This document shows, in pieces, positions 13,261 to 56,585 of a DNA stretch of 64,000 nucleotides. The position numbers were made by a program, and so were the translations under genes. The DNA lies in NCBI GenBank assembly GCA_948144175.1, contig CANXME010002103.1:124001-188000 (forward strand). Direction: 5' to 3'. Numbering within the stretch: the first letter of the stretch is position 1; every line of letters begins with the position of its first letter. Under the pieces are notes generated by a model that was not told where the DNA came from, ran no database searches, and was given only the letters and a program-made list of their open reading frames with translations. This DNA is from Closterium sp. NIES-65 (lineage: Eukaryota > Streptophyta > Zygnematophyceae > Desmidiales > Closteriaceae).

Positions 13261-13339
<79 letters not shown>

Positions 13340-15742
13340 GGCCCTTGGGAACACCGACGTCCTCCTACAACTGCACGCGCTTACCAACACGGCGCTAGCG
13401 GGTAAACTGAGCGCCGAGGCTGCAGATCTACTCACCGCTTCGCGCCTGCTCGCCTTCACGAAACCCCAAGGCGGAACTAGGCCAATAGCCGTGGGCGAAT
13501 GTCTGCTGCGTATTGTCACAAAGGCGGCGCTCTTCCTGGCCGCCCCTGCAGCGCGCGACCACTTCACCCCGCTACAATTCGGTGTGGCGATCGCGGGGGG
13601 CATCGAGGCAGCGATACACGTGGCCCGCACCTACCTGGAGGAGTTCCCCGGAGCAACGGCCCTCCAGATCGACCTGGCAAACGCTTTCAATGCCGTGGAG
13701 CGCGCGGCGGTGTTTGAAGGACTGAAAGGCACGAAGCTTGACACCCTGGTCCCCCTCGTCCGCCTCTCATACGGCCGCCCATCAGCCCTCTACCTCGACC
13801 ACGATTTCGAGGCGGAGCCTCTACAGAGCGCGCGAGGCGTGCGCCAGGGTGACCCACTGGGGCCTATGCTGTTCGCGGCCAGCATCCATCCCTGTCTCGC
13901 TGCAACGGCGACGGCCCACCCAGAGGTGGTCCTCCTCGCGTACGCAGATGACATCACCCTGCTAGGCGAGACTGCGAGCTGCACGGCGGCCTTCAACCAC
14001 CTCACGGAAGCACTTCTCAGCCACGGCCTGTCCCACAACCCCGCGAAATGCGAAGCATGGTCCGCCACAGCCCTGGAGCCCGCTGCTCTGCCCCACGGCG
14101 TCACTATCTCCCGGGACGGGATCCGCGTCTTGGGCAGCCCGATTGGGCCCCCCGCCGGCTGCGCTGCCCGAGTGCGGGAACGCCTTAAAGCTGCTGCTGA
14201 ACCGCTCCCGCTCCTCTCCCAGATGGACCCGCAACTCTGCCTGCTCCTACTTACCCGCTGCGTGAGCCGCCGCGCTTCGTTCATGGTCAGAGCCACGCCG
14301 CTTGAAGCCCTACCGCTGAGGGAATGGTCCGCCTGGGGGGAAGAACTGTTCCATACCTACCTTGCCGCAGCACACACAGAAACCCCCAGAGCCCGGGTCG
14401 AGAGGGAGAGGATTTGGCACCAGGCCGCCCTGCCCGCGTCCCTGGGAGGCCTGGGCATCACCAACCCTGCAGTGGAGGGGGGACATGCCTACCTGGCTGC
14501 AGTCACTGCTGCTGCACACCTGCTGCGAACCTTCGGCGACGCGGCAAACCCTGCTCTCACTGGACTGCTGCCGCTAATGGACTCCAACGAGGAATCTACG
14601 TCCCTCCTCCCAAGGCGCCTTGCTGCCCTAGAAGCCGCGCTGCCTCCTGAGGGGATCGAGGCCCTCCAAGTGGGGAGACAGAGACCGGACGGGCCAAAGC
14701 TCCAACAGTCGCTCTCCCTCGCGGTTCAAACTGCAAGGTTCATGCAACTGCTCGAGAGCTCGCGGGAGATGGAGCTCAACCCACTGTTCGGACACACGCA
14801 GCGGCTGCAGTCCCTCTTGGGCCCCGGCGCAGGGGACTGGCTGCTCGCCGTCCCGCTGATCTCCTCCCTCCGCCTCGGGCCCTCTCAGTTCTCCACAGCG
14901 GCCTCCTTCCGCTTAGGCCTCCCCCTACCTGTGCCAAGGCGCTGCGACTGCAGATACCGCACCACATTCCCCGACGACCGCCTACCGAACCATTTGATGC
15001 GGTGCGAGAAAGGGGGGGGGAGAATTGCAACCCACAATGCCCTTCGGGACGAGTGCGCAAAGATAGCTGCGGAAGCGGGCTTCACCGTGCATAAGGAGAC
15101 AACGGCTTACTCACCGGTCGAAAACCTCAAAGCGGATATCTCTATCCGCCATCCCGACACCGGTGAAGTGTGGATCTGTGACATCACGGTCACGGACCCC
15201 GTCTCCCACCAGGATGAATACGCCCGTAAAGCTCCCGGTTGGGCTGCTAGAATGCAGGCGGACAAGAAGGCAAGCAAATACGCCAGGCGGAGCGCTTGGG
15301 TGGGCTTTTACGCCTTGGCGGTTGAGACCTACGGTTACCCCTCGAGTGGAGTCCTGGAATTCCTTCACAGCTGCGCGGAGTTAGCGGCCATGCGGCGGTT
15401 CAACGCCACCCCCAAGTCGAGGGAATGCGCCAAGCTACTCACCGAGTACCGGCAGCGGTGGAGTGTGACCCTGCAGAGAGCGCAAGCCACTGCCCTCAGG
15501 GATAAGACCCATGAGGCCCTCACGGCGGATGCGCTCGGCCTGCAGGGCCCGTTTACTCCAATGAGTGAAGGGCAGCTGTATCAGTTGATAGAAGACCCCT
15601 CCGGCCATTAGGGCCGGGCGGGGAGGGGGGGGCTGGGGCTGGGATAGTGCGGGGTTAGCTGCTGTTTTGCTGTAGCCTGGCCGTGAGATTGCTGTAGCCT
15701 TACCATCTGTGTACCTCGCTGACATTAATACCAAGGCCCGTT

Positions 15743-15823
<81 letters not shown>

Positions 15824-18800
15824 TGGCCTAGTTCCAGTCCTCAGCCGTTTTTAGGCCTCTCTAGCCTAGTCTCCTATCCTTAGCCGTTTTTAGCCTGTTC
15901 TTCCTAGTATAAAGCCCCTAGATCTCCGCCCATGGGGCTCATTATTCACTGGTGAGTTCAGTTTACTCTCCAAAATCAGCGGCTCGCGCCGGCCGCCTTC
16001 GGCGGCCGCCGCTCGCCAGCGCGGCCTACGGCCGCGCGTGAGGGGTGGCAAGGGAGTAAGCGCCTGGCAGGTCAACATGGGGCAATACAAAAAGGAGGCA
16101 TAGATCTACGGCAGGTACAACAACACCCCCGCGCGTGAGCACACCGCCATGGGGAAGCCCAAACCCAGACCTGCTACAAAGGGGCCTGGCAAGGGGAAGT
16201 CTACCGCTACTCAACGAGGATCCAACACAGCCTCCCGTCTAGCCAGCGCAAGACGGACGCGGCTGCCGCAACAAGGTCGAGCGGGTCGCCCCGGGCTGAA
16301 GCAGCAAGCCGCGCCAAAGCTCCAGGGCCGGGCCCGAGGGCAGCCCCAGGAGAGCCCGGCACATAGCCAATCAGGGGGAGGTAATGCTGCAGCTCCTCCG
16401 CCACCGCCACCGCCGCCGACTGCTCCGCCGGCTGCATCGCCTCGATCTGCACCTCCTGCTGCATCAGTGTCACGTGCAGCTGGTCGAGCACATATGACAG
16501 GAGTGTCATGCACGTCCCAACGTGCATCACGCGTTGCTCGACGCGAGTTGGGGGCGCGCCAAGAACCAAGGCAGGGGGAGGAGGCGGGCTCGGGGCGCGC
16601 GGGAAGTGTGACGGGGGAACTTGGGGCATTGGGGGACGAGGCGGTAGCGGTTGGAAGGGTAGGGGAAAACGCCGCAGTGGGGACTGTGCTGGGGGTCGCT
16701 GTGGTGCCCAGGAGGGCGGCTGGATTGGTGCTTGAGGGAGATGCTGCTGCTGCTGCGACTGCAGCTGAGACGGTGGCGGACCCTGTGTTTGCTGGCGGTT
16801 CTGCCGCTGCCGTTGGCGGCGGCTCAACTTCACACGCTGCCGCCCCACGGGCGGCACAGAAGGAGGCGGAGGAGCCAAGCCCGGGCGTGGATCAGGAGCA
16901 GACCGCGGAGGCGGTGTTGTCGGCGTCACCGGCGCCTGTAACGGCGGCTGTGCTGGCGGCAGTGGTGTCTGCTGCGGCTGGGGAGCAGGGCGCAGCCCCG
17001 TCGGAGGTTGACGCGATGCCTGTCGCTGCGAACGCCGGAACGCGTGTACCTGCCGCGGCCGCAAACAGGCAGGAGCGCGGCCAGGCGGAGGGTGAGTTTC
17101 TGGGACCTGCGAACGGAGCCTCTGCCGGCGCCGCACGGGCGGTTTCGAAGAAGAAGCCGCGTGCCCAGCCAGCGCCGAGATGGCCCGGAGCAGGGCTGGG
17201 ACCTGGCTCCCCGGGACCCCTCCTGGGCTGGCTTCTGCAAGGGCAACCGCCATCTGAGCGAGCGCATCGGTCGTCATCGGTGAGCCAGCGAGAGGTGCGG
17301 GAGGAGGCTGAGGCTGGAAGTCGCCCGCCCGGAATCTCCCGGGACGCTTCCGCCCCCAACGTTACACCAGCAACGGCAGTGCACGCTGAGGCTCCAGGCA
17401 CCACGAATGCCGTTGCACACAACACCCGCCACGCGACGCGACGAGCGGCAATAACCTGGGGACCGCCCCGGGGAGGTCGGACACCGTGGCTGCCGGCGGG
17501 ACGTGGAGCTACGGGCGTAGTGGCAAGAGCGCCAACAAGCGCGGGGAGGACTCAACGGGGGGGCGGTACACGGGGAGCGCGCGGAGGGCGAGGGGGAAGG
17601 GCCCTGGTAGGGGGATCTGAGATCCCTGTGCGAGTTGGCACCTGGCGGGAACGCCACGACAGACCAGAGGCGGGGGCAGCACCAACGAATGAGGAGGACG
17701 CAGCGGGCTCTGAGGACAACGGTGGCGACCCAGAATTTATGTGTGGGGACGAAGCTGAATCTGAGGAGGTGTCCCTGGAGGAGGAAACTGGGGTGGACAG
17801 GAATGCACCCAACACACGGGGAAGAGGGTCGAGGGGGGATGGGCAGAACCAACAAGCTGTGGGAGATACAGGTGGAGCAACGGATGCGACAGATGTCTTC
17901 TCGCCTACGGACATGGCGAAGGACGAGGCCATCTGGCAAGAAGCTGGGGGTTGGGATATGCAGCAACTGCAACGTAGTGACCAGCCCTTCCTTGTCTGCC
18001 GCCTACCTCCACAAATCCTAGACAAATACAGCCTTTGTCTGCTGGCGCCACTTCTGAGGCTGGAGAAGTTCCCCTCGTGCCTAGGTGCGTGGAAGATTCT
18101 TCTCTTCCTACCGAGGCTTACACTACGACCCTCTCCCGAACCAGTTGTTGGGAGCCGCTGGGCTCGAATTGAGGCTCGGCTGCACCAATTTCAGCAGGGG
18201 AAATGGGAGGGACTTTTCGAGGAAGCTGGCATTATCCCCGATACCGAAGCCCCGCTACGACACCAACCGGACGACGAAGGTGTTTGTGCACGTGCCGAAG
18301 GGCTAATGAAAAAGGGCAATATCTCGAAGGCGGTTGCTGCGTTACACACCAGCCCACTCGCGGAACCCAGTTCGGCAACCCTCGCTGCACTCCGGGCGAA
18401 ACACCCACATGCCGAAGACGATCTCCCAGCCTGGGTAACAGGGGTAGCAACTTCTGAGCTCGCCATCCAGATCGACGCACTTCGCGAAATCCTGGCGAAG
18501 TGCCCGAATGGGGTGGGTGGGGGGCCCTCTGGAACGTGCTTCGAGCACCTCAGAGATCCTGCTCTCGCAAATGAGGAGATATTAATTCTACTCGCCAAGA
18601 CAGTTAACAATTTCCTTAGCACTTACCAGTCACAGGAGCTGCGCGACCTTGCCCTATCCTCACGCCTGATAGCTTTGGAGAAACCGGGGGGTGGGTCAGG
18701 CCTATCGCGATTGGCGAAACATTGCTCAGAGTAGTAGCGAAAGCAGCTCTACACTCGCTCGGCCCCAAGATCCGTGAGTTCTTTCTCCCGGTCCAATTCG

Positions 18801-21280
18801 GCGTGGCCATCCCGGGGGGAGCGGAGTGCATCATACACTCGGTTAGAGCGCTACTACAGGAGGACGTCTCGCGGATCGCGCTGCAGCTGGACGTAGAGAA
18901 CGCGTTCAACAGCGTCGAACGCAGGGCTTTCTTCGAGGCGCTGCAATGGTCTAACCTCAACCCCCTACTCCCCCTGGTCCGAAACCTCTACGACGGCCCG
19001 TCGAGGCTCCTGGTCGACCAGCGTTTTGACACTGAGTACATCTTGAGCTCCCGCGGAGTTCGCCAAGGCGATCCACTCGGCCCGCTCCTGTTCGCGGCGG
19101 CGATCCAGCCAGCACTGCTGAGTGTGGCCACTACTCTGCCGGATGTGGCGATCGTTGCCTACGCCGACGACATTACGATTGTCGGCCCGCGTGAAGCTGC
19201 CTGCCTCGCCTTCGACACGATCGCTGCGGCTTTGGGAAAAGCAGGACTGCGATGCAACATTGCCAAATCAACGGCCTGGGGGAGGAACGCGAGCGAGCAG
19301 CAGGAGAAGTTGCCGCTTGGGCTGACCTCGAACCCGGGAGGAATCAAGGTGTTGGGCAGCCCAGTTGGGACTGATGACTTCTGCACGGACCACGTACGGG
19401 CGGCGCTGGGGGAGGCGGCATCACCGCTCCTCATTTCACAACTGAACGCGCAGCACGCGCTCCTTATGGTCTCACGCAGCATCTCACGGCGGATCTCGTA
19501 CATGCTCCGGACGACCCCGGCTTCAACACTAAGTGTGCGAGAATGGAGGGAGTGGAGTGAGGCTCTCCTGGGCTCGGCGCTCACCGCGGCGAAACTACGG
19601 ATCCCCACCTCCGAGCTTGAGCAGAGCCTGCTGTGGCGTCAGGGGACACTCCCCATCCGCCTGGGTGGCCTCGGGGTGATCGACCCTATCTCTGAGGCAC
19701 CCGCGGCATACCTGGCTTCAGTCACGGCGGCACACATCCTACTGAGGCAGCTGAACCTGCCAACGGACTGCCTCCTGAGCCGGGCGACACAGCTCCTCTC
19801 CCACGAGTGGGCCCCACTACCACCTGAGACCAACCCCAGAGCCACGATGGAGGGTAACCTCCCTGCTGAAGCCCGAGCAACACTAGAGCAGTACAGGGCA
19901 GGGGGTCTGGGCACTGGGAACCTGCAGCTGGGGCTGTCCAAGTCTATCAACCAGCGGCGGGCGTTGGAACTCCTAGCAGACACACTTCAGGACCGGCCGG
20001 GGGAGGACAGGGGCCACGCCATCCGCCTCATCAGCCTCAAGGGGGTGGGTGCGGGTGACTGGCTCCATGCCATCCCAACAAGAGGAGACCTTAGCTTATC
20101 CCCTGGTCAATTCTCGATGGCCTTGGGCCTGCGGCTGGGCATGGAGCTGCCGGTCGCCGAGGTGTGTCCGTGCAAGCGGGAAAACGCGACGATTGCCGAT
20201 AAGAGCCTCCTCAATCACCTCCTGCGGTGTGGGGATGGCGGGGACGTCGTAAGGACCCACCACGCCCTGGTTTTCGCGGCTCTCAGGATGGCCAGGGACG
20301 CGGGTTACAAAACGTTCCATGAGACCACGGCTTTCTCTCCCCCCGTCCTCCGAAAGCGTGCAGACCTGGCCATCCGAGACCAGGAGTCAGGGGAAACGTG
20401 GGTGACGGATGTCACGGTCACGGATCCAGTGTTGCAGAGGCGGGACAAGAGAGCCAGGAAGCCGCCTGGGTGGGCAGCGGAGGAAGCTTCCGAGGGAAAG
20501 CACAGGCTCTACGAGGGCCGCCCTAGCTACGCTGGGTTTTTTGGGCTGGCGGTAGAGACGTATGGGGCTCTGGCCAAGGACACGCAGCAGTTCATCCGTA
20601 TGCTAGCCACCCATGCCGCCAAGACGAAATACAGGAAGGGACGCCTCACGACGACCGCCGCCCGACTCAATGCACACTTCAGGCAACGGTGGTCCGTGGT
20701 GCTCCAGCGCAGCCAGGCGATCTCCATCCTTTCCAAGTCAAACCGTGCAGTGGGAGCGGCTTTCCCACAGGCAGCGGCGGACCCTTGGGCACCTCGGCTA
20801 GGTGACCTATGGCAGACCTTGGAGGACGAGTACGATGAGAGACACGCCCCTGTCAGGGCGGCCTGAGGGGTTTAGGGTGCCAGGGAGAGAGGAACATGGT
20901 GACGGGAGGAGGAGGGGTGGCGGCAGGGGAGGGGTACATGGGTGCGGTGAGAAGCAGAGGGGGGTGTGCTGGGTTAGTGTGGGTCAGAGGGAACAGGGAT
21001 AAGGAAGGGCGTCTCAGGGAAGGTGCGAGGAATCGGCGGGTCGGAGGGGGATAAGGGGAGGCTGTGTGGTACGGGAGGGGAATAGCGGAAGAAACACGGT
21101 TCCCATGGTCTTGAGCCACTGGGGATCGGGCTGCTCTGACAGTTAGGGGTGCTCTAGGTTGGATGGGCTTGCCCTGTTTGCTTGTTTAGTTCTGGCCCCC
21201 TGGCTGCTCCAATACCTAGGCTACCTAGTTACCACCACCTGCCCTGCCTGTACCTTGTGACCCATTTAAATGCATGACTG

Positions 21281-21367
<87 letters not shown>

Positions 21368-24300
21368 CCCTTAGCAATCTGCCCTCTGCCTGATCCCTCT
21401 GCCCTCTGTCCTCCAGAGCTATTTAAGGGCTGTTTGGGTCTCTTTCTCCTCATTATTTCGTGTTCCTGGTGGCAAGGATTTCACACGGGATCAACACCTT
21501 CAAAGGGGGGTACAAGCAGCGCAAACAAGCAAGGGAGTGGGGAGCAATCAAGGGGATCGGCATGCAATTCTACACGCGGCGGAGGCCTACATCGTGTACG
21601 GCTCCGTCCCCTCCACCTCAAGCATCAAGCGCATGCACGCCGACACCGCAAGGAGGAGATGCGCCGACGACTGAAGCGTGTCCACGGTGGTCCCGACTCG
21701 AGCAGCCCCTACAAGATCCTCCACGTGGCGGGGGAAAGTACGCGCTAAGGGCGCTACCCCGGCGGGTGCTTCCGACACGGGTGCCAACGGCGACTCGAGC
21801 GATTCTGCCAAAGACACGCAGGATCCTCGGGTCTTTGGACCGTAACTGCTCGGAAAGTTCCGCGTGGCCCCACTCACCGCCAGCTGCAAGTTCGCCACCA
21901 CCTTGCACGCCTCCGCCAGATTCAGAATCCGGCACATGGTCAGCATGGGGTCTCTCCCCGCGCGAGTGGGGGGAGGTGCAGTCGGCGCTTCGCGCGGAAA
22001 CGCCGTCGGCCAGCCAGGAGTCCGGCCAACAGAGAAGCGCTGTGCGGAGAAGTCCGGGACCTGAGCCCTCCCCTCCCGCGCGGGCAGATACTCGCGCAGC
22101 GTCGGCGCACGCAGAGGAGCCACCTGGCCGGGGTCCGCAGCGAAGGGAGGGCCGTTGGTCACCTCAATGTGTACGTGAGTCGGCTCCCCACTCACCCGCG
22201 CCTGCCGCACCACTTCCGCAAACGCATTCGTGGCGCGATCGAGGGCAGGATCCTGCTGGCGACCATTACCGCCTCGCCCACCGCCATTCCACTCCACCGG
22301 CCTCGTCGGCCTCCGGAACCAGCCGAGTGCGGACGCGGGGGGGACTGCTCGCGGCGACCCGAATCCCAGCGACGCCCAGGCGACCCCCTCCCCCGCGTCG
22401 CCGGAGATCGCCGCGGAGAGCGTTGCGCAGGGGATCGCGCTCGGGGTGAGAGCTGGCCTGCCCGACCACGAGGGGATGGGCGGCGAGGAGAGCGAGGACG
22501 CGCAGGGGAGCGCTGATCCCCTTCCCTGCGCTGATGAGGTTCGCGATGCTCAGGAGAAGGGCGGCGAGGAGAGGGCTGCCGAGGAGGCTGACGTGGAGGC
22601 GAGCGCCCGCGCTCCTGCTGCGGCTGACCGTCCGGGCGGTTCGACGCAACACGTGCAGGGGCCCACGAATACTCCGGTGAGGTGGGGCGCGCGGCAGGCC
22701 GATGGGGAAGAGTTAGCACTCGCTCGAAGCGGCGGACGGGCTCGCTTGCGGAGGGGTGTGCAGGGACACGTGGACGAGGCCCGGCAGGCGCTGGCTCTGG
22801 CAGCGCGCTCTCCGCGGAGCCCTCCAGCTCCGGATCTCGTCTCGCGGATGGGTCCATCACCCCCGATAGTACCGCAGCCGACGCCAGCGCGCCGACGAAG
22901 CGAAGACGAGGCGGACGCGACACCTCAGACAGGGCGCGCGGGAGCTGCAGGAGGAAGAGCAACGCGTGGAATCCGCGTGGGACGCGGCGGTAGCCGCCGC
23001 GGACGACGGGGAAACAGGAGAGGACGAAGAGGTGGTGGAACACGCGGTTCGAACCGGCGCCGCACTGGTGCAAGCGGCTACGCGAGGAATGCAGAAAGGC
23101 TGATGCGGGACGGCGCGGAAGGCGGCGAGGAACCGCTTAGCGAGGAAGCAGAGGAGGAAGTGGAGAATGACGAAAGTGACAGGGGTGACCCTGCTTTTAA
23201 CCCTGAAAGAGAGGGGATGTTGGGAGCAGAAGCCGAGGAGGGCGAGGAGGAGTTGGAACTCCTGCTTCGGGGAGAGGAGCTCCCCAGCCCGAATGCCAAA
23301 GGCGAACCTGCCAACCGAACCACATCTCAAAACCGAGCCGCGGGGGGGAAATCAAGCAAGGAGGGGAAATCGAGCCGCGACAGAGAACGGAGTTGACTCT
23401 GCGACAGCCAATGAGAATTCGGCAGCCCCAATTCCAACCCCCCCGATGCTCAAACCTGACGACCTGGTGAAAAAATCTGACCTGTTCGCCCAGGTTGCAG
23501 ACTGGGACCTTGGCCCGTTGCGCGACAGTCGCCAGCCCCCACTCGCCCGCCACCCTCCAAAAGACCTTCGCGAATCTTTCGCGATTTGCCTGCTGACACC
23601 GTTACTCCACCTGGCAGCCAACCCCGAGTCAGAACCAGGTTGGAAGTTGCTGACCTTCCTCCCGCGCATACTTCTTCGCACCTCGTCAGCTCGTAAGCCT
23701 GACTGGAGCGCAATGATGAACCGGCTCCTGCGTTTTCGCCAAGGGTTCTGGACCGGCCTCTACGAAGAAGCTGCCGAAGCGAACTCCCTCCCTCCGCAGC
23801 CTCGCCACGCACCTGACACAACTGGAATTCTCGCCAGAGCGGAGGGTCTGGCAAAGCGTGGTAACCTCTCAAAATCGTTGCAATCCCTGCAAGCCACGCC
23901 CGTGTCACCTGCCTCACCTGAAGTTCTCGAGGCCCTCACGACGAGACACCCACCTGCATCCCAATCGCTACCTGATTGGCTACACGCTGCCACAGCAGAA
24001 AACCCTCCCGCTATCGAAGCCCGCGACTTCAGAAGGCTCATCGCCAAGCTCCCCAATGGAGTAGGGACTGGCCCCTCAGGAACTACCTTCGAACACATCT
24101 GCGATGCAGCCCTAGGAAACGCCGAGGTTTTCACCCACCTCTTAGCCCTCACCAACACGGCTCTAGCGGGGAAACTTCCTGCCGTCGCGGGGGAGCTCCT
24201 TAACGCCTCTCGCCTGTTGGCCTTCACGAAACCGCACGGAGGGACGAGGCCGATCGCGGTTGGAGAATGTCTACTACGGATCATCGCCAAAGCAGCTCTC

Positions 24301-27300
24301 TTCCTGATCACGCCAGCCGCTAGATCTCACTTCGTCCCGCTTCAGTTTGGCGTGGCAGTAGCGGGGGGCATTGAGGCTGCTATACACACGGCGCATACTT
24401 ACCTGGAGGTGCATCCTGAAGTAGTGGCGCTGCAAATCGACCTCGCGAACGCGTTCAACGCAGTCGAGAGGAGAGCGGTGTTCGAGGGGTTGAGGAACGA
24501 AGTGCTTGAGAGTCTCACCCCCCTGGTCCGCCTATCTTACGGAGTCCCCTCCTCACTCTTCCTCGACCATGAATTCGCGGCGGCTCCCCTGCAAAGCGCC
24601 AGAGGGGTCCGCCAAGGAGATCCCCTCGGCCCCCTACTATTCGCCGCCAGCATCCACCCCTGCCTCGTTGCGACGGCAGCGGCTCACCCGCGGGTCGTCC
24701 TACTCGCCTATGCCGACGACATCACGCTCCTTGGTGACGCGCCACATTGCGCCGCGGTCTTTGACCACCTCACCGCCGCGCTCGCCTCCATGGGGCTCCT
24801 CCACAACCCAGCTAAGTGCGCGGCTTGGTCCGCCGCACCAATTGACCCTGCCTCCGTTCCCCCGGGCATCACCGTCTCGACCGAAGGGCTGCAAATCCTC
24901 GGCAGCCCCGTCGGCACAACACAGGGCTGCGCCACGGCAGTCAGGGACAGACTCACGGCAGCAGCGGAACCGCTCCCGTTGCTAGCGCAAATGGACCCGC
25001 AGCTCTGCCTCCTCCTCCTCACACGTTGCGTCAGCCGCCGCGCCTCATTCCTGGCAAGGACAACCCCGCTGGAGGTCTTACCCATCGCAGAATGGTCGGC
25101 ATGGGGGGAGCGGCTGCTCCACGCGTTCCTAGAGGCCGCGCACATTGTCGCACCAAGGAGCGACGAAAGGAGGCGTATTTGGCAACAGGCAACGCTTCCC
25201 GTTACCTTGGGGGGTTTGGGCATTACGGACCCGGCCGTGGAAGGAAGTTACGCGTACCTCGCTTCGGTGATCGGTGCGGCTCACCTCCTGCACTCGCTCG
25301 CCGACTCCCTACACCCCGCCATAGCTGCACTGCTCCCCCTTATGGACTCTGTTCCGGACTCCGCAGCAGCCTTGCCCTCGCGCCTAGCTGCAACTGAAGC
25401 AGCCCTGCCTCCTGAAGCCATGGAGGCCCTTCAGGCTGGTAAAAGTGACCCCAAGGGACTGAAGCTCCAGCAGTCCCTGGCCCTGGCAGTCCACACCCGC
25501 CGCTACCTCCGAGTGCTGAACACGGCGCGGCATATGCGCCCAAACCCCCTCTCAGGGCATGCTCAGCGGATGCAGTCCCTGCTGGGCCCGGGAGCAGGGG
25601 ACTGGCTGCTGGCAATCCCACTCTCTTGTGCGCTGAGGCTGGGCCCCTCCCAACACTCTTCTGCTTCCTCCTTCCGCCTTGGCCTCCCCCTCCCTGTCCC
25701 AAGGCGGTGCGACTGCCGATACCGCACCACCTTCCCTGATGACCGCCTCCCGAATCACCTTATGCGCTGCGAGAAGGGGAAAGGGAGGACTGCCACACAC
25801 CATGCTCTCAGGGATGAAATCGCAAGGATAGGGGCGGAAGCAGGCTTCACGGTTCACAAGGAGACCTATGCCTACTCTCTGGTTGAAAACCTTAAAGCGG
25901 ATGTCTCCATCCGCCATCCCCTGACCGGAGAAGTGTGGCTTTGTGATGTGACCGTGACCGACCCGGTGTCCTACCAGGACGAGAACTGCAACCGCGCACC
26001 TGGTTGGGCGGCTAGGGCAGCAGCTGCTCGGAAGGAGGAGAAATATGCGGGACGGAACGCGTGGGTGGGGTTCCACGCCTTGGCCGTGGAGACCTACGGC
26101 TACCCGTCGCCGGGGGTGCTGGCTTACCTGCGGCAGTGCGCGGAGCTGGCTGCGAAGCTCCGCTACAACGCGGCCCCTACCTCTCGAGAGGCTGCCAAGC
26201 TGCTGACGGAGTACCGCCAGCGCTGGAGCGTGTGCCTCCAGAGGGCGCAGGCAAACGCCCTCCGCACCAAGACCAATGAGGCCCTGGAGGCGGACGAGCT
26301 CAGCCTGCAAGGGCCGTGGGCCCCCCTCAACGAGGGGCAGCTGCACCAGCTGATTGAGCCCCCGTCTGACCACTAGGGTCGGACAGCGGGGGGGGGGAGA
26401 GAAGTAGGTGATGGTTGATAGGCCTGCTTGTTTGCCTAGTTTGCACGTGTCAGCTTCAAACCTTTGTACCACCCTTCAGCTAATACACGGACCATTCGAG
26501 AAGAAAGAGTGTGTTGTTTAGAGAGCCACTGAGATGCTAGGCTTTAAGCAAAGGAAAACGCTGCCTTATTTCTGTAAGAGACCAGTTCTGGTTCGAGTTG
26601 AACCATTCGAAACCTTCAAATCAAAGCAAGTGAGGCACATCCAACTCCAGGTTCGCATCGCAGCTCGAGCAGTACGGGTTTCCTAGAGAAGCAATTCAAG
26701 GGCTGCAAAAGTTCATCTCGTTCCGCTTGTTTTTGGCAAACAAAGACTCCTCGTTGGTTCGGATACTTGCTCAATCCCAGACGCCACAGTAGGGAGAATC
26801 TCGGTATGGCAACATAGCAGGATGGCAAGTTGGTATGGTAAACAGTAACTCACAGATTTTGCAGGTGGACCAGATTGGTCCAGCTATTGGGGAGGTAGCC
26901 TTCCAGGTTGTTTCCGTAAAGGGACCTGCAGAATGAGTGTGAGAGCAGGCAACAGACGGACGCGCGAGTATTAACTGGTGGGAGTTATGAGAATCTAGGG
27001 CAGAAATTATGAGTGATTTTCTTGAGACAGCGTTGCGGCAACAGAGACGGTCTGAGTGGGCCACCACAGTACGCTAATGCATATCACCTCTAACGAGGCA
27101 CGCTCTTACATTGCATGTCAGCCGCTTTCCCAACACCCTAGCTGCTTTCCCAACACCCTAGCTTCTTTCCCAACACCCTAGCTGCTTTCCCAACACCCTA
27201 GCTGCTTTCCCAACACCCTAGCTGCTTTCCCAACACCCTAGCTGCTTTCCCAACACCCTAGCTGCTTTCCCAGCACCCTAGCTTTCAACGAAGCGATTCC

Positions 27301-33949: not shown

Positions 33950-34610
33950 CCCCCATTTCCCCTAGTGGCCCCGCCGCACGTCGCCTCGCGGCCCCGTCGC
34001 CCTACCTCGCGGCCCCGTCGCCCTACCTCGCGGCCCCGCCGCCCTACCTCGCGGCCCTGCCGCCCTACCTCGCGGCCCCGCCGCCCTACCTCGCGGCCCC
34101 GCCGCCCTACCTCGCGGCCCCGTCGCCCTACCTCGCGGCCCCGCCGCCCTGCTCAGCGGCCTCGCCGCCCTTCTGCAGCGGCCCCGCCGCCCTACTCTTG
34201 CGACCCCGCCGCCCTACTCCTGCGGCCCCGCCGCCCTACTCCTGCGGCCCCGCCGCCCTACTCCTGCGGCCCCGCCGCCCTACTCCTGCGGCCCCGCCGC
34301 CCTACTCCTACGGCCCCGCCGCCCTACTCCTGCGGCCCCGCCGCCCTACTCCTGCGGCCCCGCCGCCCTACTCCTACGGCCCCGCCGCCCTCCTCCTACG
34401 GCCCCGCCGCCCTACTCCTGCGGCCCCGCCGCCCTACTCAGCGGCCCCGCCACCGTTCACCAGCGGCCCTACCGCCCTACACCGCCCGCGCCGCCCGAGC
34501 TGCCAGAACAGCCCGAGCCGCCCGAGCCGCCCGAGACACCCGAGCCGCCCGAGCCGCCTGAGCCACCCGAGCCGCCCGAGCCGCCCGAGCCGCCCGAGCC
34601 GCCTGATCAG
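33950..34610 (+). repeat. GC-rich tandem repeats in leader of copia A
   Basis: Short units such as CGGCCCCGCCGCCCTACTCC (about 21 bp) and CTCGCGGCCCCGCCGCCCTA repeat some 20 times, followed by GAGCCGCCC repeats. They lie between the primer-binding site and the gag start at 34780. The region is open in two frames as Pro/Ala/Leu- or Pro/Arg-rich peptides, which I regard as chance. Confidence 0.9.
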
Positions 34611-35260
34611 CCGAGTCGCCGGTGCCGCGGAGCCGCAGTCGCTACTGAGCCGTCCGAGCAGCCGTGTTGCCGTGTAACTGCACTACTGAGCTGCCCGACT
34701 TGCCCTGTCTCGTGAGACCAGTGCTTCTGTCACTGCACTGCCCCTGTCCTACAGTTGGTCTCGCTAGTCTACCGCTGTCATGGCTTCCCCTAGTCTTCTC
34801 GCTTTTGACGCTGAGGGTCGAGCCATTGACTTTGAGGTTTGGGTAGATGACTTGCAGCTCTTCTTACAGTGCGATAGGGCAGACGGTCTCTCCCTCTTTG
34901 ACCTCACCTCTAGCGCCTCTCCTGCCCCTGGTGCTGATGGTGACCCCACTGTTCGCTCCCAGTGGGCCACGCGCGATGCTGCGGCACGTCTTGCTGTGCG
35001 TCGCCACCTACCTACCTCTGAGCGCGCGCACTTTAGTCAGTACAAGAGTGCTCACACCTTATACGACGCTGTAGTTGCGCGCTACTCTTCCCCTGCCACT
35101 GCTGCACTGAGCCGCCTCATGCTACCGTACCTCTTCCCTGGCCTTGTTGCCTTTCCCACAGTCGCTGACCTCGTTACGCACCTCCGCACTAGTGACACTC
35201 GCTACCGCGCCGCACTTCCTGCTGAGTTCTGCGCCAAGAATCCCCCCCCCATGTACATCA

Positions 35261-35388
35261 TGTCAGATTTATATGACATAGTTTCTGTAGGCTATAGTGG
35301 GATAGCACATATGGGGTACAGGGTTTCTAGGGTTGCATTTGTACCCAATCTTCCATAGTCATTTCATTCCTGTTTTCCTTACTTCACA
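35261..35388 (+). repeat. 5' LTR of copia B
   Basis: 128 bp with TG...CA ends, matched by the LTR at 42546-42673. It is shorter than, and diverged from, the LTRs of A. Confidence 0.95.
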
Positions 35389-35489
35389 TGGTATAGAGCG
35401 GGTCCTGCCTTAGGACCGTTTTTTTTAGGGCCCACCGAAGCGCGCCTCGAGGCGCGCCTTTTTTTTTTAGCGACCCCTCGGGTCGCCTT

Positions 35490-36330
35490 TTTCATCGCGG
35501 CCCCGCTGTCCCTCAGACGCGGCCCCGCCGCCTCTCCTGATCGCGGCCCCGCCGCCTGTTTGATGCGGCCCCGCCGCCTCCCCTGACGCGGCCCCGCCGC
35601 CTCCCCTGACGCGGCTCCGCCGCCTCCCCTGACGCGGCCCCGCCGCCTGTTTGACGCGGCCCCGCCGCCTCCCCTGACGCGGCCCCGCCGCCTCCCCTGA
35701 CGCGGCTCCGCCGCCTCCCCTGACGCGGCTCCGCCGCCTCCCCTGACGCGGCTCCGCCGCCTCCCCTACCGGCCCGCCGCTGCACCTGCCGGCCCGCCGC
35801 TGCACCTAGCGGCCCGCCGCCTCTGACGGCCTCGCCGCTGCACCTGCCGGCCCGCCGCCTCTGACGGCCTCGCCACTGCTCCTGCCGGCCCGCCACTGCA
35901 CCCTACGGCCCGCCGCTGCACCCTACGACCCGCCGCCTGCACCTGCCGGCCCGCCGCTGCACCTGCCGGCCCGCCGCTGCACCTGCCGGCCCGCCGCTGC
36001 ACCTGCCGGCCCGCCGCTGCACCTGCCGGCCCGCCGCTGCACCTGCCGGCCCGCCCCTGCACCGGTCGACCCGCCGCTGCACCTGACGGCCCCGCCCCTG
36101 CATCTCCTGGCCGAGCCGCCCCAGCAGCCGAACCGCCCGTGAGCCGAGCCGCCCGACGCCGAGCCGCCCGGGACCCGAGCTGCCCTGCCGCCGAGCCGCC
36201 CGGGAGCCGAGCCGCCCTGCACCCGAACCGCCCAGCCGCCGAGCCGCCCGGGAGCCGAGCCGCCCTGCGCCCGAGCCGCCCAGCAGCCGAGCCGCCCTGC
36301 ACCCGAGCCGCCCGGTCGCTGAGCCGCCTT
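35490..36330 (+). repeat. GC-rich tandem repeats in leader of copia B
   Basis: CTGACGCGGCCCCGCCGCCT units (about 22 bp) give way to TGCACCTGCCGGCCCGCCGC units (20 bp), then GAGCCGCC repeats, filling the space between primer-binding site and gag. Units differ from those of A, yet the position and base composition match. Confidence 0.9.
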
Positions 36331-37747: not shown

Positions 37748-40700
37748 CTGGTGTAGCGATCTTTGATCTTGATTTTGATGCTATCCTTGCTGCTATGTAT
37801 GTTGTGGATTATAGTGAGGAGAATGAGGGTTACCGTTGTTTCCAGCCCGACCCAGGCATTGGTACTGCTGCGCTAGGTGCTTGTGAGGCTGCTGCTCTAG
37901 GTGCCAGTGCGTCTGTGCTCTCAGGTACTGGTGAGACTGCGCTCTCAGATACTGCGTCGTCCTCGTCCTCCCTCACTTTCACACTTGACTCCGGAGCTTC
38001 TCGCTCCTTCTTTCGAGACCGCACTACCCTTACGCCGCTCGGCCGGCCGGTTGCGGTCTCCCTTGCTGACCCCTCTGGGGGTCCTGTCCTGTCTCACTTC
38101 TCCACTGTCCTCCCGTGTCCGGCTGCCCCTTCGGGCACCCTGTCGGGTCTGTACCTTCCCTCGTTCTCTACGAACTTGGTGAGTGGAGCGGACCTGCAGG
38201 ATGTGGGGGTTCACCAGTTCACTCCTGCGAGTCAGCGGGTGACCCACTGCACGGAGGCACGCACAGGCCGACACCTGGCCACTTTCTCGCGTCGGCCGGG
38301 GTCGAGTCTCTACACCCTGACCGTTGAGTCTCCTCCTGTCCCTACGTCTGGTCAGGTGGCTGCGTCGGGTCAGGTGCTTGCTGCTGCGTCCCGGTCAGGT
38401 CCTGAGTCTGCCCCCTGTTCTTGTCGCCTCCTGTCTCACGAGACTCTCCTGTGGCACCACCGTCTTGGCCACCCCTCCTTGCCCCGTCTTCGGAGCATGG
38501 CTTCCCGTGTCCTTGTCTCTGGTCTTCCCCAGTCTCTCCCTCCTCTCCCCTCCGGGCCAGGACCTTCCTGTGTCCCCTGTGTCGAGGGTCGCCTCCGGGC
38601 TACTCCTCACTCCTCCCACTTCCCCCCGACAGAGGCTCCCCTGCAGACGCTTCACATGGATGTGTGGGGCCCAGCCCCCGTCCGTGGGCAGGGTTACGAG
38701 CGCTACTTCCTGTTGGTGGTTGACGACTACTCGCGTTACACCACAGTCCTCCCCTTGCGCAGCAAGGGTGCGGTCACTGAGGTGCTGATCGACTGGATCC
38801 GCGAGGCTCGTCTCCAGCTCAGGAAGAGCTTTGGCTCGGACTTTCCTGTTCTGCGTCTGCACTCGGACAGAGGCGGAGAGTTCTCTTCTCGCCTTCTGCG
38901 GGACTACTGTCGTGCACGGGGGATCCGCCAGACCTTCACGCTTCCGGACTCACCACAGCAAAATGGGATTGCTGAGCGCCGCATTGGCATGGTCATGGAT
39001 GTCGCTCGTACGTCCATGATGCATGCGGCTGCCCCCCATTTTCTGTGGCCGTTTGCGGTGAGGTACGCGGCGCATCAGATCAACCTTCACCCCCGGGTCT
39101 CTCGGTCTGCGATGTCCCCAGCCTTGCTGTGGACGGGGAAGGTTGGCGATGCGTCTGTGTTCCGTGTCTGGGGATCTCGGGCGTTTGTCCGCGACTTGTC
39201 TGCGGACAAGCTGTCCCGTCGTGCTGCTCCCTGTGTCTTCCTTGGCTTCCCCACTGACGCCCCAGGGTGGCAGTTTTACCACCCCTCCTCTCGTCGTGTT
39301 CTGTCCTCCCAGGACGTCACGTTCGACGAGTCAGTCCCCTTCTACCGCCTCTTCCCCTACCGCACTCCTTCCCTCCCCCCTCCCCCGGACTTCCTTGTGC
39401 CGGTTCCCCCCCCGGTAGACCCCCTCCCCCCTCAGGTTCCTGCCCCCTCAGGTGTGTCCCAGGTAGACGCCGTTGACCCGGTCGAGGTTACTGGTGACTC
39501 TGGTGCTGCTGCGGGTGCTGAGCTTGGGGGTGCTGACTCTGGGGGTGCTGTGCGCGGGGGTGCTGAGCCTGGGGGTGCTACTGCTGGGGGTGCTGGGCCT
39601 GAGGGTGCTACTGCGGAGGGTGCGGAGCCTGGGGGTGCTGGGCCGAGGGGTGCTGTGCCTGGAGGTGCTGGGTCTGGGGGTGCTGGGTCGGGAGCTGCTG
39701 AGCCTGGGGGTGCTGAGCTGGGAGCTGCTGAGCCTGGGGGTTCTGCGTCTGGGGCTGCTGAGCCTGGGGTTTCTCCTGCTGCTGCGTCTCGCCGGGAGCC
39801 CCTCTCTCCACAGGAGCTGCGCGAGTGGTTCGCTCGCCGCTGGAGGCGTGCTGCTGAGTCTGGAGGTGCTGCTGGAGCTGGAGCTGGAGCTTCTTCGACC
39901 GTCGAGGGTGCGGGTGCTGCTGGTCCCGGAGCTGCTGGACCTGCGGGTCCTCCTGGAGCTGGAGCTGCTGCGGGCGCTGGTGCTGAGCCTACTTCTGTTG
40001 GTTATGCCGCTGGAGGTGTGGGTGGCGCTGGTGCTGTCGCTGAGGGTGCTGGTGCTGTCCCTGCTGCGTCTGGAGCTGCCGCGCGGCCTCGGCCGTACTT
40101 CGTTCCGCTCCTGCAGCAGGTTCTTGGTCTTTCTCCTCCGGTAGAGGGTCCACCGCCTGTCCAGTCACAGTCCCTGCTGGAGCCTTTCTCTCCGCTGCCT
40201 GCTCCCTCTCCTTACACTAGTCCTACTGGAGGTCTTGCTGAGCGTTGTGAGCCTGCGTCTCGTCCCGCGTCGCCTGTTCGTGCTGCTCGCGCTAGTGGTC
40301 GCAGTTCGCGTCAGCGTCCTCCTCCTGTCCCTGGCACGCACCGGATGTCTTTGCGTCCGTCCACTGCTCCTCTGCGTGCCTCTTTGCCTTCTCCTCCTGA
40401 GTCCTCTCTTCCTGCGCTTGCCGACCCTGGGTCGGACTCTCTTCGTGCTGCCAGTCCTACTGTCACGCGTCTGCTTGCTACTGTCGTCACTGACCCCTCT
40501 TTTGAGTCCACTGCTGCGTCTGCTCTAGTCGCTGAGCTCGTCGACTTTGCTGCTCGCTGTCGTCTCGACTACGCTGCTAGTCTTGTTGCTGAGTCTGCGT
40601 CTGTCTGTCCTCCGTCCGTCGGGGGTGAGTGTGCTCTTGGCACGGACGTCCAAGAGGACAGGCAGGAGGAGTTACAGTGTCTAGCGACTGCTTCACCTCA

Positions 40701-42330
40701 TCTCGCGTCTGTACTGCTTGCCCCTGAGGGAGACCCGGATGCACTAGACATCCCGACTCCGCGTTCTTACGCGGAGGTCGTAGAGGGTCCCTACTCCTCT
40801 CAGTGGCAGGCAGCTATGGATGCAGAGATGGCTTCCTGGAAGTCCACAGGCACCTACGTAGACGCGGTTCCCCCTCCTGGGGCGAACATCGTCAGTGGCA
40901 TGTGGATCTTCAGGGTGAAGCGGCCGCCGGGCTCTCCACCTGTCTTCAAGGCACGGTACGTTGCTCGTGGCTTCAGTCAGCGGCAGGGAGTTGACTACTT
41001 TCAGACCTTCTCTCCCACCCCGAAGATGACTACTCTTCGGGTGCTGCTGCACATAGCCGCTCAGCGCGACTACGAGCTTCACTCTCTCGACTTCAGCACT
41101 GCGTTCTTGCAGGGTAGCCTGCACGAGGAGATCTGGCTTCGCCGTCCACCTGGCTTCACTGGGACTTTCCCCCCTGGCACCCAGTGGAGCCTCCGACGGC
41201 CAGTCTACGGTCTCCGCCAGGCACCGCGTGAGTGGCACGACACACTGAGGACTACGCTTGCGGCTCTTGGGTTTGCTCCTTCTACTGCTGACCCGTCGCT
41301 GTTTCTTCGCACCGACACTTCCCTGCCGCCGTTCTACATCCTCGTGTACGTCGACGACTTGGTCTTTGCCACAGCGGACACTGCTAGACTCGCCTACGTG
41401 AAGTCCGAACTGCTGAAGAGACACACGTGCACAGACCTGGGTGAACTGCGCAGCTACCTTGGCTTGCAGATCACTCGGGACAGAGCACGCCGCACCATTA
41501 CCTTGACTCAGTCACACATGGTGCAGCAGGTCCTTCAGCGCTTCGGCTTCACGTACTCCTCGCCTCAGGCCACTCCTCTGCCTACTCGCCACTCACTCTC
41601 AGCTCTGCCTTCGAATGAGTCCGTAGAGTCGAGTGGTCCGTATGCAGAGCTTGTTGGCTGCCTCATGTACCTGATGACCTGCACACGACCTGACCTTGCA
41701 TACCCTCTGAGCATTCTTGCTCGCTATGTTGCTCCTGGGAGACACAGACCAGAGCACATGGCTGCAGCGAAGAGGGTATTGCGCTACCTGTGCAGCACGT
41801 CGGGCATGGGGCTAGTGCTTGGAGGGCGGAGTCCAGTGGTCCTTACCGGCCACGCGGACGCTTCTTGGGCTGACGACCAGGCTACGCAGCGGTCGTCACA
41901 GGGTTACACCTTCAGCCTTGGTTCCGGCTCTGTCTCGTGGCGGTCTACTCGCTCGTCTTCGGTTCTCGGCTCCAGTTGTGAGGCTGAGATCTACGCCGGG
42001 GCCATGGCTGCACAGGAGCTTCGCTGGCTCACCTACCTGCTGATTGACGTTGGAGAGCCGCCTCGTTCTCCTCCAGTGCTGTACGTAGACAACAAGGCCA
42101 TGCTGGCCTTGTGTCGAGAGCAGCGCTTGGAGCACAGAACGAAGCACATTGCTCTCCGCTACTTCCTTGCTCGTGAGCTGCAGCAGCATGGTCAGTTGCG
42201 ACTTGCGTACGTGGCCTCTGAGGCCAACACTGCTGATGTGTTCACCAAGGCACTCGCGCCTTGTGACCATCAGCGCTTTTGCACCCAGCTGGGTCTTGTG
42301 CCTGTCTTGCCTCACTTGCTCTCCTCTTGA
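37748..42330 (+). CDS. Pol of copia B (PR-IN-RT-RNaseH)
   Basis: Open to 42330 with no internal stop, and with recognisable coding from about 37748 (VAIFDLDFDAIL in A's equivalent; ATG at 37795). Order: protease DSGASRSFF near 37987; GAG-pre-integrase HHRLGHPSLPR near 38456; integrase catalytic core with HSDRGGEF near 38863 and PQQNGIAERR; a low-complexity (GGAEP)n linker about 39480-40080; RT with FKARYVARGF, DFSTAFLQG and YVDD near 41347; RNase H with DASWADD, EAEIYAGAM and VDNKAML. The stop follows LPHLLSS. All catalytic motifs look intact. Translation would need the upstream frame restored or its own initiation. Confidence 0.9.
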
Positions 42331-42545: not shown

Positions 42546-42673
42546 TGTCAGATTTATATGACATAGTTTCTGTAGGCTATAGTGGGGTAGCACATATTGG
42601 GTACAGGGTTTCTAGGGTTGCATTTGTACCCAATCTTCCATAGTCATTTCATTCATGTTTTCCTTACTTCACA
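42546..42673 (+). repeat. 3' LTR of copia B
   Basis: 128 bp, near-identical to 35261-35388, preceded by a polypurine tract and followed by the CATCA duplication. Confidence 0.95.
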
Positions 42674-45600
42674 CATCACTCTCTATTATATTGTCACTCG
42701 CCTCCCTGACTCCCTTCGCGTAGTCAGGGACCACTTCCTCTCAGTCTGTCACACCACTCTCACTGATGACCTCCTAGAGAAGGCCCTCCTAGCAGCGGAG
42801 AAGAGCATAGTCGCTGTAGGAGCCTCTCGTGGTGACCCTCGCACCCCCATCTTTGAGGGGTGTTCCCCTTCCCCCTTGTTGCCCTCTGTCGCCTCTGCCG
42901 CTGCGGCCGACCTCGTTGGTCTTGAGTCGGTCGGTGCGGCGTCTGCCCCTTGCGGGAGACGCCGCTCTGGCAAGGGCAAGGGGGGCAAGGGCGCGGGTGG
43001 GGCTAGCGGGGGTGGTGGAGGTGGCGGTGGGGGCGGCGGGGGGAGTGGGGGTGGCGGTGGGAGTGGTGGCGGGGGTGGAGGTGGCAGTGGCAGCGGCCGA
43101 GGCGGAGGCGGCGGTGGCGGTAGCGGTGGGAGCGGAGGCGGCGGTGGCGGCGGAGGTGGAGGCGGCGGTGGTGGAGGAGGTGGAGCTGGTCGGGGTGGTA
43201 CTTCTCAGCGGAGCGGCTCCGGGAGTGGTCAGCGCCAGCAGCAGCAGCAGCAGCGTTCTCGGGACATCCCCCACCCTCAGCAGCTCCGTGAGTGGTACAC
43301 GCAGCGTCAGAGTGGTGGGGGTTTTGGCCCGTGCACCTACGTCCTCCGCTCCGGCGACCGCGCAGGTGAGCAGTGTGGGGGTGCTCACCCCACCCAGCGC
43401 AACTTTGGCCGCCTGACGGACACTTGGCGTCAGCAGTTCTCGGAGGCTAGTGAGATCCCCCGCTGGGGAGAGCTGTCTAGGGCAGGCGTAGCTATCTTTG
43501 ATCTTGACTTTGATGCTATCCTTGCTGCCATGTATGCTGTGACTATTAGTGATGAGGGTGACTGTTACCAGTGTTTCCCGCCCAACCTGGGCATTGGTAC
43601 TGCTGCTCTAGGTACTGGTGAGGCTGCTGCTCTAGGTGCCAGTGCGTCCGCGCCCTCAGGTGCTGGTGAGTCTGCGCTCTCAGGTACCACGTCGGCTTCG
43701 GCCTCCCTCACCTTCACACTTGACTCAGGGGCTTCTCGCTCCTTCTTTCGAGACCGCACCACACTCACGCCGCTTGGTCGGCCAGTTGCAGTCTCCCTGG
43801 CAGACCCCTCTGGGGGTCCTGTCCTCTCTCACTTCTCCACTGTCCTCCCGTGTCCGGCTGCCCCCTCTGGCACCTTGTCTGGTCTTTACCTCCCCTCGTT
43901 CTCTACGAACTTGGTGAGTGGTGCTGACCTGCAGGATACGGGGGTTCACCAGTTTACTCCTGCGAGTCAGCGGGTGACCCACTGCTCGGACGCTTGCACA
44001 GGCCGGCACCTGGCCACGTTTACGCGTCGGCCGGGGTCGAGCCTCTACACCCTGACCACTGGGTCTCCTCCTGTCCCTGCGTCTAGCCAGGTAGCTGCGT
44101 CGGGTCAGGTGTTTGCTGCAGCGTCCAGGTCTGGTCCTGAGTCTGCCCCCTGCTCGTGTCGCCTCCTGTCTCACGAGACTCTCCTCTGGCACCACCGCCT
44201 TGGTCACCCCTCCCTGCCTCGTCTCCGAGGCATGGCTTCCCGTGTCCTTGTCTCTAGTCTTCCCCGGTCCCTCCCTCCCCTTCCTCCGGGGCCTGGTCCT
44301 TCCTGTGTTCCCTGTGTCGAGGGGCGGCTCCGCGCTGCCCCTCACTCCTCTCAGTTTCCCCTGACAGAGGCCCCGCTGCAGACGCTTCACATGGACGTGT
44401 GGGGCCCTGCCCGCGTCCGTGGACAGGGTCACAAGCGCTACTTCCTGCTGGTGGTTGACGACTACTCGCGTTACACCACAGTCTTCCCCTTGCGCAGCAA
44501 GGGTGATGTCGCTGAGGTGTTGATCGACTGGATCCGCGCAGCTCGTCTCCAGCTTAGGAGGAGCTTCGGCTCAGACTTTCCTGTTCTGCGTCTGCACTCT
44601 GACCGAGGCGGAGAGTTCTCCTCTGGCCTTCTGCGAGCCTACTGTCGTGCGCGAGGCATCCGCCAGACCTTTACGCTTCCGGACTCTCCACAGCAAAATG
44701 GGATTGCTGAGCGCCGCATTGGCATGGTCATGGACGTCGCTCGTACGTCCATGATGCATGCGGCTGCCCCCCATTTTCTGTGGCCGTTTGCGGTTCGGTA
44801 CGCGGCGCATCAGATCAACCTTCACCCCAGGGTCTCCAGACCGGAGACCTCCCCAGCCTTGCTGTGGACGGGGAAGGTCGGCGATGCGTCTACGTTCCGT
44901 GTCTGGGGATCTCGGGCGTTTGTCCGCGACTTGTCTGCGGACAAGCTGTCCCCTCGTGCTGCTCCCGGTGTCTTCCTTGGCTTCCCCCCTGACGCCCCTG
45001 GGTGGCAGTTCTACCACCCCACCTCTCGTCGTGTTCTGTCCTCCCAGGACGTCACGTTGGACGAGTCAGTACCCTACTACCGCCTCTTCCCCTACCGCAC
45101 TCCTTCCCTCCCCCCGCCACCGCACTTCCTTGTGCCAGGTCCCCCCCTGATAGACCCCCTCCCCCCTCAGGGTCCTGCCCCTTCAGGTGTGTCCCAGGTA
45201 GATGCAGTTGAGCCGGTCGAGGTTGCTGGTGACTCTGGTACTGCTGCGGGTGCTGAGCCTGGGGGTGCTGACTCTGGGGGTGCTGCGCGCGTGGGTGCTG
45301 AGCCTGGGGGTGCTGCGTCTGGGGATGGTGTGATTGGGGGTGCTGAGACTGGGGGTGCCGAGCCTGGGGGTGCTACGACTTGGGGTGCTGAGCCTGGGGG
45401 TGCTACGACTGGGGGTGCTGAGCCTGGGGATCCTTCGCCTGGGGGTGCTGCATCTGGAGCTGCTGAGCCTGAGGGTGCTGAGTCTGGAGCTACTGAGCCT
45501 GGGGGTGCGGAGCCCGCGGCCGCTGGACCTGCTAGGGTGGCGTCTGGCGGTGCTGGGCCTGCTGGCTCTCCGGTTGCTTCGTCTCGGCGGGAGCCACTCT

Positions 45601-55281: not shown

Positions 55282-55349
55282 CGCTAGCAGCCGCCAGCGC
55301 TAGAGCCTTCCGCCGCCCACATCCGCCCACAGACGCATGGCCCCTTCCG

Positions 55350-56205: not shown

Positions 56206-56424
56206 CAAACTCACTCCCTCGTGCTTCTTGCCTCATAGCCCCTTATTTCCCCCATGCTAGCTCCATGTTTCTCCCCTGCAAACCCATGATTCCCCCCTGC
56301 TAGACACATATTCCCCCCCTGATAGCCCCATATTTCCCTCCATGCTAGCCCTGTTTCCCCCACCATGCCTCAAGTTTCCCCTCATTCTAGCCCCATGTTT
56401 CCCCCCTACTGCTGGCCCCATGTT

Positions 56425-56585
56425 TTCCCCCAAGCTATCCCCAGTTTTCCCCCAAGCTATCCCCAGATTTCCCCCAAGCTATCCCCAGTTTCCCCCCAGC
56501 TATCCCCAGTTTTCCCCCAAGCTATCCCCATCATTCCCCCAAGCTATCCCCATGATTTCCCCGAGCTATCCCCATGCTCCCCGAG
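56425..56585. repeat. 22-bp CCCCCAAGCTATCCCCA-type repeat
   Basis: Units of about 20-22 bp built on CCCCCAAGCTATCCCCAGTT, about seven copies. Diverged relatives (CATGCTAGCCCCATGTTTCC) are spread over 56240-56420 and 57720-59050. Confidence 0.9.

Follow-up and report, generated by a model that had tools for sequence, protein, structure and literature searches.

How do three retrotransposons come to stand in single file, each between repeats of one and the same dinucleotide? The question is raised by a stretch of 64,000 nucleotides from Closterium sp. NIES-65 (GenBank assembly GCA_948144175.1, contig CANXME010002103.1, positions 124,001 to 188,000 of the forward strand), hereafter the window, in which three non-long terminal repeat (non-LTR) elements lie in tandem, separated and bordered by GA microsatellites. 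The answer that we favor, with a probability of about 0.9, is that these are R2-like elements of a Closterium-type alga, carrying a restriction-like endonuclease (RLE), for which the usual target is the (GA)n microsatellite, entered in one orientation. The features from which this reading is built, namely, the protein architecture, the constancy of the 3' junction, the GA on both sides of those copies that were read at both ends, the orientation, and the arrays, are matters of observation.

The order in the window is (GA)37, copy 1, (GA)38, copy 2, (GA)40, copy 3, and imperfect GA, everything on the + strand (Table 1). The tracts were located by Tandem Repeats Finder and an exact scan, and the 3' junctions read CCCGTTC/GAGA at 15743 for copy 1, GACTGCTT/GAGA at 21283 for copy 2, and GGACCATTC/GAGAAGAAAGAG at 26497 for copy 3. 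Copy 1 is 5'-truncated, given that its start lies inside the coding region; copies 2 and 3 are long copies with 5' untranslated regions (UTRs) and broken frames. Copy 2 is read in the frames 16149-18734 and 18722-20866, with a frame change near 18.7 kb and a 3' UTR up to 21283, and copy 3 has a main frame at 23167-26376 and an N-terminal part with a broken frame. The 5' end of copy 2 is GGAATGG, the first G being shared as the last base of the preceding GA tract, and that of copy 3 is (G)GATCCCTTAGC. Copies 1 and 3 share 70% of their DNA (2,308 columns) and 73% of their protein sequence, and copy 2, with GA at both ends, is 43% identical in protein to either of them. The preliminary description of this locus had proposed the same order in one orientation, with all three 3' ends running into GA and with copy 2 as a member of a diverged family at the same kind of site; the two scans, the three + strand reverse transcriptase (RT) copies, the located junctions, and the protein divergence agree with it on each of these points.

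This divergence bears directly on the possibility that the row arose through unequal crossing-over between GA tracts, or through assembly joins at them. Recombination and mis-assembly are common hazards of GA tracts of about 80 bp, and some neighboring copies elsewhere (on C1841 and C2000, and on C128) could represent duplicated segments or haplotigs. However, differences of 30% in DNA (1 vs 3) and of 57% in protein (2 vs either) show that the window copies are not duplicates of each other; GA also flanks both sides of single copies in unlike surroundings; and these junctions are found again on dozens of contigs, some longer than 5 Mb, 80 bp being short for long reads. With diverged copies in the window and the same junctions at single copies in unlike flanks, an assembly artefact or a tandem duplication appears scarcely credible as the source of the pattern.

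The elements and the repeats are, moreover, both rare in the surrounding DNA. Within 264 kb of contig C1805 (the window and 200 kb more), a tblastn search queried with all three copies (E <= 1e-6) yields no RLE copies beyond those in the window, and GA/TC tracts of at least 10 units are confined to the three junctions and one TC-rich satellite locus; in the DNA beyond the array, 10 of 250,750 positions are starts of sense (GA)4, about 4 per 100,000, and none is a start of (GA)8. Because RLE copies and long GA tracts are otherwise nearly absent from these 264 kb, their chance co-occurrence is excluded. On the same contig, at about 260.5-261.9 kb and outside the window, there is a GA/TC-rich satellite with GGTCGA spacers and no element; the element at L045 adjoins a GA-rich satellite that, by eye, is like the one on C1805, and satellites containing GA blocks may also act as targets.

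The association extends across the assembly (2,400 contigs, 874 Mb). A search with the copy-1 protein yielded 4,083 candidates, the best 59 of which were scored, two in the window and 57 outside it. The 3' flanks were read for all 57, with about 300 bases past the junction in 39, about 135 in L047, and short extracts in 17. The 3' terminus is visible in 52 of the 57, and each of the 52 visible ends adjoins sense-strand GA-type sequence, which is exact GAGA in 51 and AAGAGAGA in L087. At least 4 GA units follow in 45 cases, at least 8 in 35, and at least 15 in 25, the lengths being right-censored for the 17 short extracts. The terminus has the form GGMCCRYT plus about one base (the extract of L098 begins inside it and shows CCATTC/GAGA). 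A stricter terminus pattern matched 41 of the 57 copies; the wider pattern required GA behind it, so the count was repeated without that condition. The unconditioned motif GG[AC]CC[AG][TC]T is present in 53 of the 57, with GA within two bases in 51, and the only occurrences without GA behind, those in L066 and L067, lie early in the coding part and, hence, are not the end. Five pairs have the same flank (L043/L050, L047/L048, L069/L070, L073/L075, and L083/L090), which leaves at most 47 distinct sites. The 3' flank of L039 is a compound repeat, (GA)17(CA)n. In L062, a copy-1-type element, the 3' UTR is interrupted by opposite-strand DNA in which, by eye, a 3' end like that of copy 2, a short run of GA, and a piece resembling a 5' UTR can be made out.

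Constant GA at the 3' end could, in principle, be the element's own tail: the RNA would end in GAGA, slippage during reverse transcription would lengthen it, and the insertion itself would be non-specific, in the manner of the RTE elements of Lepidoptera. The visible ends do adjoin GA regardless of tract length, two of them (L063 and L093) have GAGA followed by non-repeat DNA, and RTE elements have been reported to create microsatellites at their 3' ends (PMC2887409). A tail of this kind, however, does not account for GA in front of the element. Six full-length copies with long frames and no RLE sequence in the 3' flank were chosen for an inspection of the 5' flanks, and in all six, GA stands directly before the identical start GGATACCCC, with 7 units in L076, 12 in L077, 23 in L078, 9 in L079, 10 in L080, and 16 in L081. 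Farther out, four of the six 5' flanks are mutually dissimilar, the one on C1668 is the 3' end of another copy, and the one on C1843 is a repeated 5' UTR unit. Truncated copies, too, begin directly behind GA, namely, copy 1 in the window and the copies that follow L043/L050, L047/L048, L052, and L059. Given that GA is present at both ends of the chosen copies, it is more than a 3' tail. Furthermore, some outer flanks carry native imperfect or compound repeats, and of the 36 copies for which both the terminus and a longer 3' flank were available, 11 have same-strand RLE sequence behind the GA (9 when L043/L050 and L047/L048 are each counted once), which would be unexpected under non-specific insertion. 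A pure 3' tail is, in view of the GA on the 5' side, highly improbable.

The 5' UTRs of diverged lineages have in common a TATA-like box (CTAGTATAAAG / CTATTTAAGG), with TCATT(A/G)TT slightly downstream, which is seen in L076 (C1843:160347-160647), in the window (15821-16010 and 21365-21480), and in L033 (2577-2700). In L076, the first 140 or so bases, the TATA-like box included, are tandemly repeated together with a GA stub and resemble promoter monomers. In the region 15700-21800 of the window, where copies 2 and 3 have their 5' ends, there is no match at threshold to a hepatitis delta virus-like ribozyme or another known RNA family; three small nucleolar RNA matches fall below threshold.

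Approached from the repeat side, the assembly gives 82,268 overlapping matches to (GA)20, the first hundred of which fall in five loci, and all five were read. RLE elements directly adjoin GA at two of them. At L033, a long element lies between a left GA tract, which continues as imperfect GA, and a right tract of the form (GA)30-A-(GA)30; at L031, two convergent elements, matching copy 2 at 76% and copy 1 at about 48%, each have the 3' end at a GA tract.

Head-to-tail rows are found outside the window as well. In seven of the RLE-followed copies (L043, L048, L050, L052, L055, L059, and L071), the RLE match starts within 12 bases of the GA; the flank of L047 is that of L048, the sequence after GA in L037 starts with the same bases as in L071, and in L051 and L054, the match starts 137 and 96 bases farther on. 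The copy-2 lineage was searched in the same assembly, with the best 62 of 3,895 candidates scored, 61 of these outside the window; the four that were read all adjoin GAGA, one visible for four bases only at the edge of the extract and one within imperfect GA. Among the 121 listed copies, 13 neighbor pairs are closer than 10 kb, 12 of them same-strand, where random placement predicts 0.17; the window holds two pairs, so that 11 lie elsewhere, 10 of them same-strand. C1841 and C2000, possibly duplicates of one another, both carry a copy-1-type coding region with a truncated copy-2-type one about 300 bases behind it. The wider expectations voiced from the window alone, that this RLE lineage targets (GA)n, that most copies in the assembly are flanked by GA or TC repeats in the same orientation, and that same-orientation insertion builds GA-flanked arrays, are thus sustained by the visible 3' ends, the chosen 5' ends, and the recurrence of head-to-tail neighbors.

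Two side observations concern these arrays. At C222:1260116-1264448, two same-strand copy-2-type coding regions are 65 bases apart, too close for a 420-base 3' UTR such as that of copy 2. The Closterium gene models P0004, P0014, P0018, and P0063 apparently span two adjacent RLE copies, in that they contain a second RT or a second endonuclease motif or have the endonuclease ahead of the RT, which fits arrays elsewhere.

Several facts weigh against (GA)n as the target or narrow its foundation. The 5' flanks come from six copies, which were selected for a non-element 3' flank, and in one of these (L076), the sequence upstream is repeated 5' UTR, with the outer flank beyond reach. Six of the 52 visible ends (L051, L063, L065, L083, L090, and L093) have only 2-3 GA units, and L063 and L093 show no repeat beyond the GAGA, so that GAGA alone may sometimes be enough for insertion. 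In L073 and L075, antisense RLE coding DNA lies behind (GA)4, and three of the five sampled GA loci contain no element. Five of the 57 copies (L062, L064, L066, L067, and L088) lack the terminus and so offer no junction to judge; old copies are under-represented because the 59 and 62 copies are the best-scoring among thousands of candidates; and a target-site duplication is not discernible within a repeat.

If (GA)n is indeed the target, both the constant GAGA at the 3' end and the constant orientation agree with target-primed reverse transcription that starts at a nick in the TC strand. The element protein would bind GA/TC repeat DNA, and its endonuclease would nick what is presumably the TC strand, the 3' end of which could pair with the terminal GAGA of the element RNA and so prime reverse transcription; this GAGA, in turn, would have been transcribed from the flanking GA by read-through. 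Whether complete or truncated, the 5' end would then be joined to the GA remaining on the opposite side. Given that GA remains at both sides after insertion, the site could be used again, and further insertions, those of diverged families included, would line up head to tail with GA between neighbors. A more far-reaching version of this scheme, which we regard as unlikely, albeit worth stating, is that the entire Closterium RLE clade not only uses but also makes and lengthens (GA)n: each RNA would carry GAGA read from the flank, each insertion would deposit new GA, and most long sense GA tracts of the genome would have been seeded by elements, subsequently becoming landing sites for all sister families.

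RVT_1 was the only Pfam domain above the cut-off in the five window frames scanned and was detected in every copy. Across 51 aligned sequences (copy 3 and 50 others), QGDPxGP and both D of YxDD are invariant, and C848, C850, H864, C868, D927, and K956 are near-invariant (90% or more); we take D927 and K956 to be catalytic, by analogy with R2. The translation of copy 1 displays the zinc knuckle CDCRYRTTFPDDRLPNHLMRC and KADISIRHPDTGEVWICDITV. No Pfam endonuclease/exonuclease/phosphatase match, which would have indicated an apurinic/apyrimidinic endonuclease (APE), was obtained for the five window frames and 15 relatives, a negative limited by broken N-termini, and a C2H2-like N-terminal motif is absent from the N-terminal frame of copy 2, one frame of copy 3, and 8 relatives, the N-termini of which are broken or taken from gene models. 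An AlphaFold2 model of the protein (mean predicted local distance difference test score 83.4) was compared as a whole with known structures using Foldseek: the top match is R2 (E 1.1e-21, 964 columns, TM-score 0.52, root-mean-square deviation 8.2), followed by one at 1.9e-21, and the seven best PDB matches are all R2 entries, each with more than 900 columns and TM-scores of about 0.45-0.52 by query, human LINE-1 ranking below the R2 entries (E 5.1e-15). At the sequence level, the PDB matches of copy 3 are five R2 sequences and one group II intron RT. The conserved residues and the modelled fold thus support the prediction that the window copies encode a non-LTR RT with a C-terminal zinc knuckle and, behind it, an RLE with a PD-(D/E)XK-like core, the label under which they were originally described.

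Among 58 matches of the copy 3 protein, the best 36 are named Closterium, with identities of up to 99%, and one further named match is Diplonema; copy 2 adds matches in the Closterium strains Yama58-4, NIES-65, and NIES-68, so that the streptophyte host proposed for the lineage is corroborated by its closest named relatives. In a quick maximum-likelihood tree, the 20 Closterium rows make up a single group (Shimodaira-Hasegawa-like approximate likelihood ratio support of 100). The deepest split of this clade has copy 2 on one side and copies 1 and 3 on the other, with the L033 element as a separate branch on the latter side, and lineages from both sides share the (GA)n target. The three R2 RT segments in the tree are placed apart from this clade, the segments covering only 16-20% of the columns, the root being arbitrary, and R2 being the sole reference clade. 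No relatives on viral contigs were confirmed, and GA-coded Arg-Glu or Ser-Leu runs, a proxy for GA flanks in the gene models of relatives, do not occur in P0001-P0163. A distant relative on a short contig (P0039) combines, in a single frame, an RT with a ubiquitin carboxyl-terminal hydrolase domain behind it.

To our knowledge, microsatellite-specific RLE elements have so far been known from animals. Dong of the R4 clade inserts at TAA repeats, and both the Dong/R4-clade and the HERO elements are RLE elements like the window copies, but with animal hosts and, for Dong, another repeat. A screen by Kojima and Fujiwara (2004), with microsatellites as targets in its title, reportedly may cover animal elements with targets of the (TC)n type, in which case the dinucleotide itself would be less novel. 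SART1Bm shares with the Closterium elements a repeat as the target, but its target is TTAGG repeats and its endonuclease is of the APE type. It provides a precedent for RNA annealing, a short target-like RNA sequence having been proposed to anneal to the bottom strand (PMC7265360). Togen, a NeSL-related RLE non-LTR element, is likewise specific for a dinucleotide microsatellite but for a different one, (TG)n, and in fish hosts, and some HERO families have been described as microsatellite-specific (PMC4640811). FoTeR and MoTeR, grouped with CRE/SLACS, are RLE elements that, as here, are associated with a simple, in their case telomeric, repeat; FoTeRs carry tandem repeats on the 5' side (compare L076) and occupy chromosome ends, in contrast to the dispersed (GA)n sites of the Closterium elements (PMC12857005). 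R2 itself has the RT, linker, zinc knuckle, and RLE in the same order and provides the best fold matches, but its target is the 28S ribosomal DNA rather than GA-type sequence, and the Closterium sequences scanned lack the N-terminal C2H2-like motif.

The same repeat at both junctions in a fixed orientation, the hallmark of a microsatellite-specific element, was found here on the 3' side in 52 of 57 copies, on the 5' side in the six chosen copies, and in the copy-2 lineage in the four read of 61. A literature search over titles and abstract openings yielded no (GA)n-specific RLE elements and no such elements in Closterium. In an alga closely related to land plants, a diverged clade would appear to retain a single dinucleotide target. 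Dozens of insertions, many of them near-identical and with clean junctions, make the minimum repeat number, the orientation, and the role of RNA pairing directly testable, and the protein is a candidate enzyme for repeat-directed insertion. Such targeting would also account for part of the GA repeats, odd gene models, and tandem rows of retroelements in Closterium assemblies.

Table 1. Elements of the GA-bordered array and predicted protein domains of copy 3, in positions of the window
Feature	Position	Strand	Remark
(GA)37, left outer tract	13263..13336	+	GATAAGAGGGGGG directly before the tract
Copy 1, non-LTR element	13337..15743	+	frame 13338-15608, 3' UTR up to 15743; RVT_1 E 4.3e-20
(GA)38, between copies 1 and 2	15744..15820	+	Tandem Repeats Finder, exact scan
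Copy 2, diverged family, about 5.5 kb including the 5' UTR	15821..21283	+	RVT_1 E 1.4e-16
(GA)40, between copies 2 and 3	21284..21364	+	Tandem Repeats Finder, exact scan
Copy 3, near full-length, copy-1 lineage	21365..26497	+	RVT_1 E 3.6e-18
RT domain of copy 3, residues 355-578	24229..24900	+	Pfam RVT_1
Zinc knuckle (C848, C850, H864, C868) and putative RLE core (D927, K956) of copy 3	25708..26034	+	alignment
GAGAAGAAAGAG, imperfect GA, right outer flank	26498..26509	+	read from the sequence

The remainder of the window contains other repetitive DNA. Two consecutive Ty1/copia-type polyproteins (RVT_2, rve, gag_pre-integrs) occupy 37795-42330 and 42597-48146, the second split over two frames, and a gag/capsid frame of the Ty3 type lies at 61004-62386. 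Dense minisatellites, for example, a 14-base unit repeated 60 times and a 134-base unit repeated 6.6 times, fill 55341-59550 and 33967-36328.

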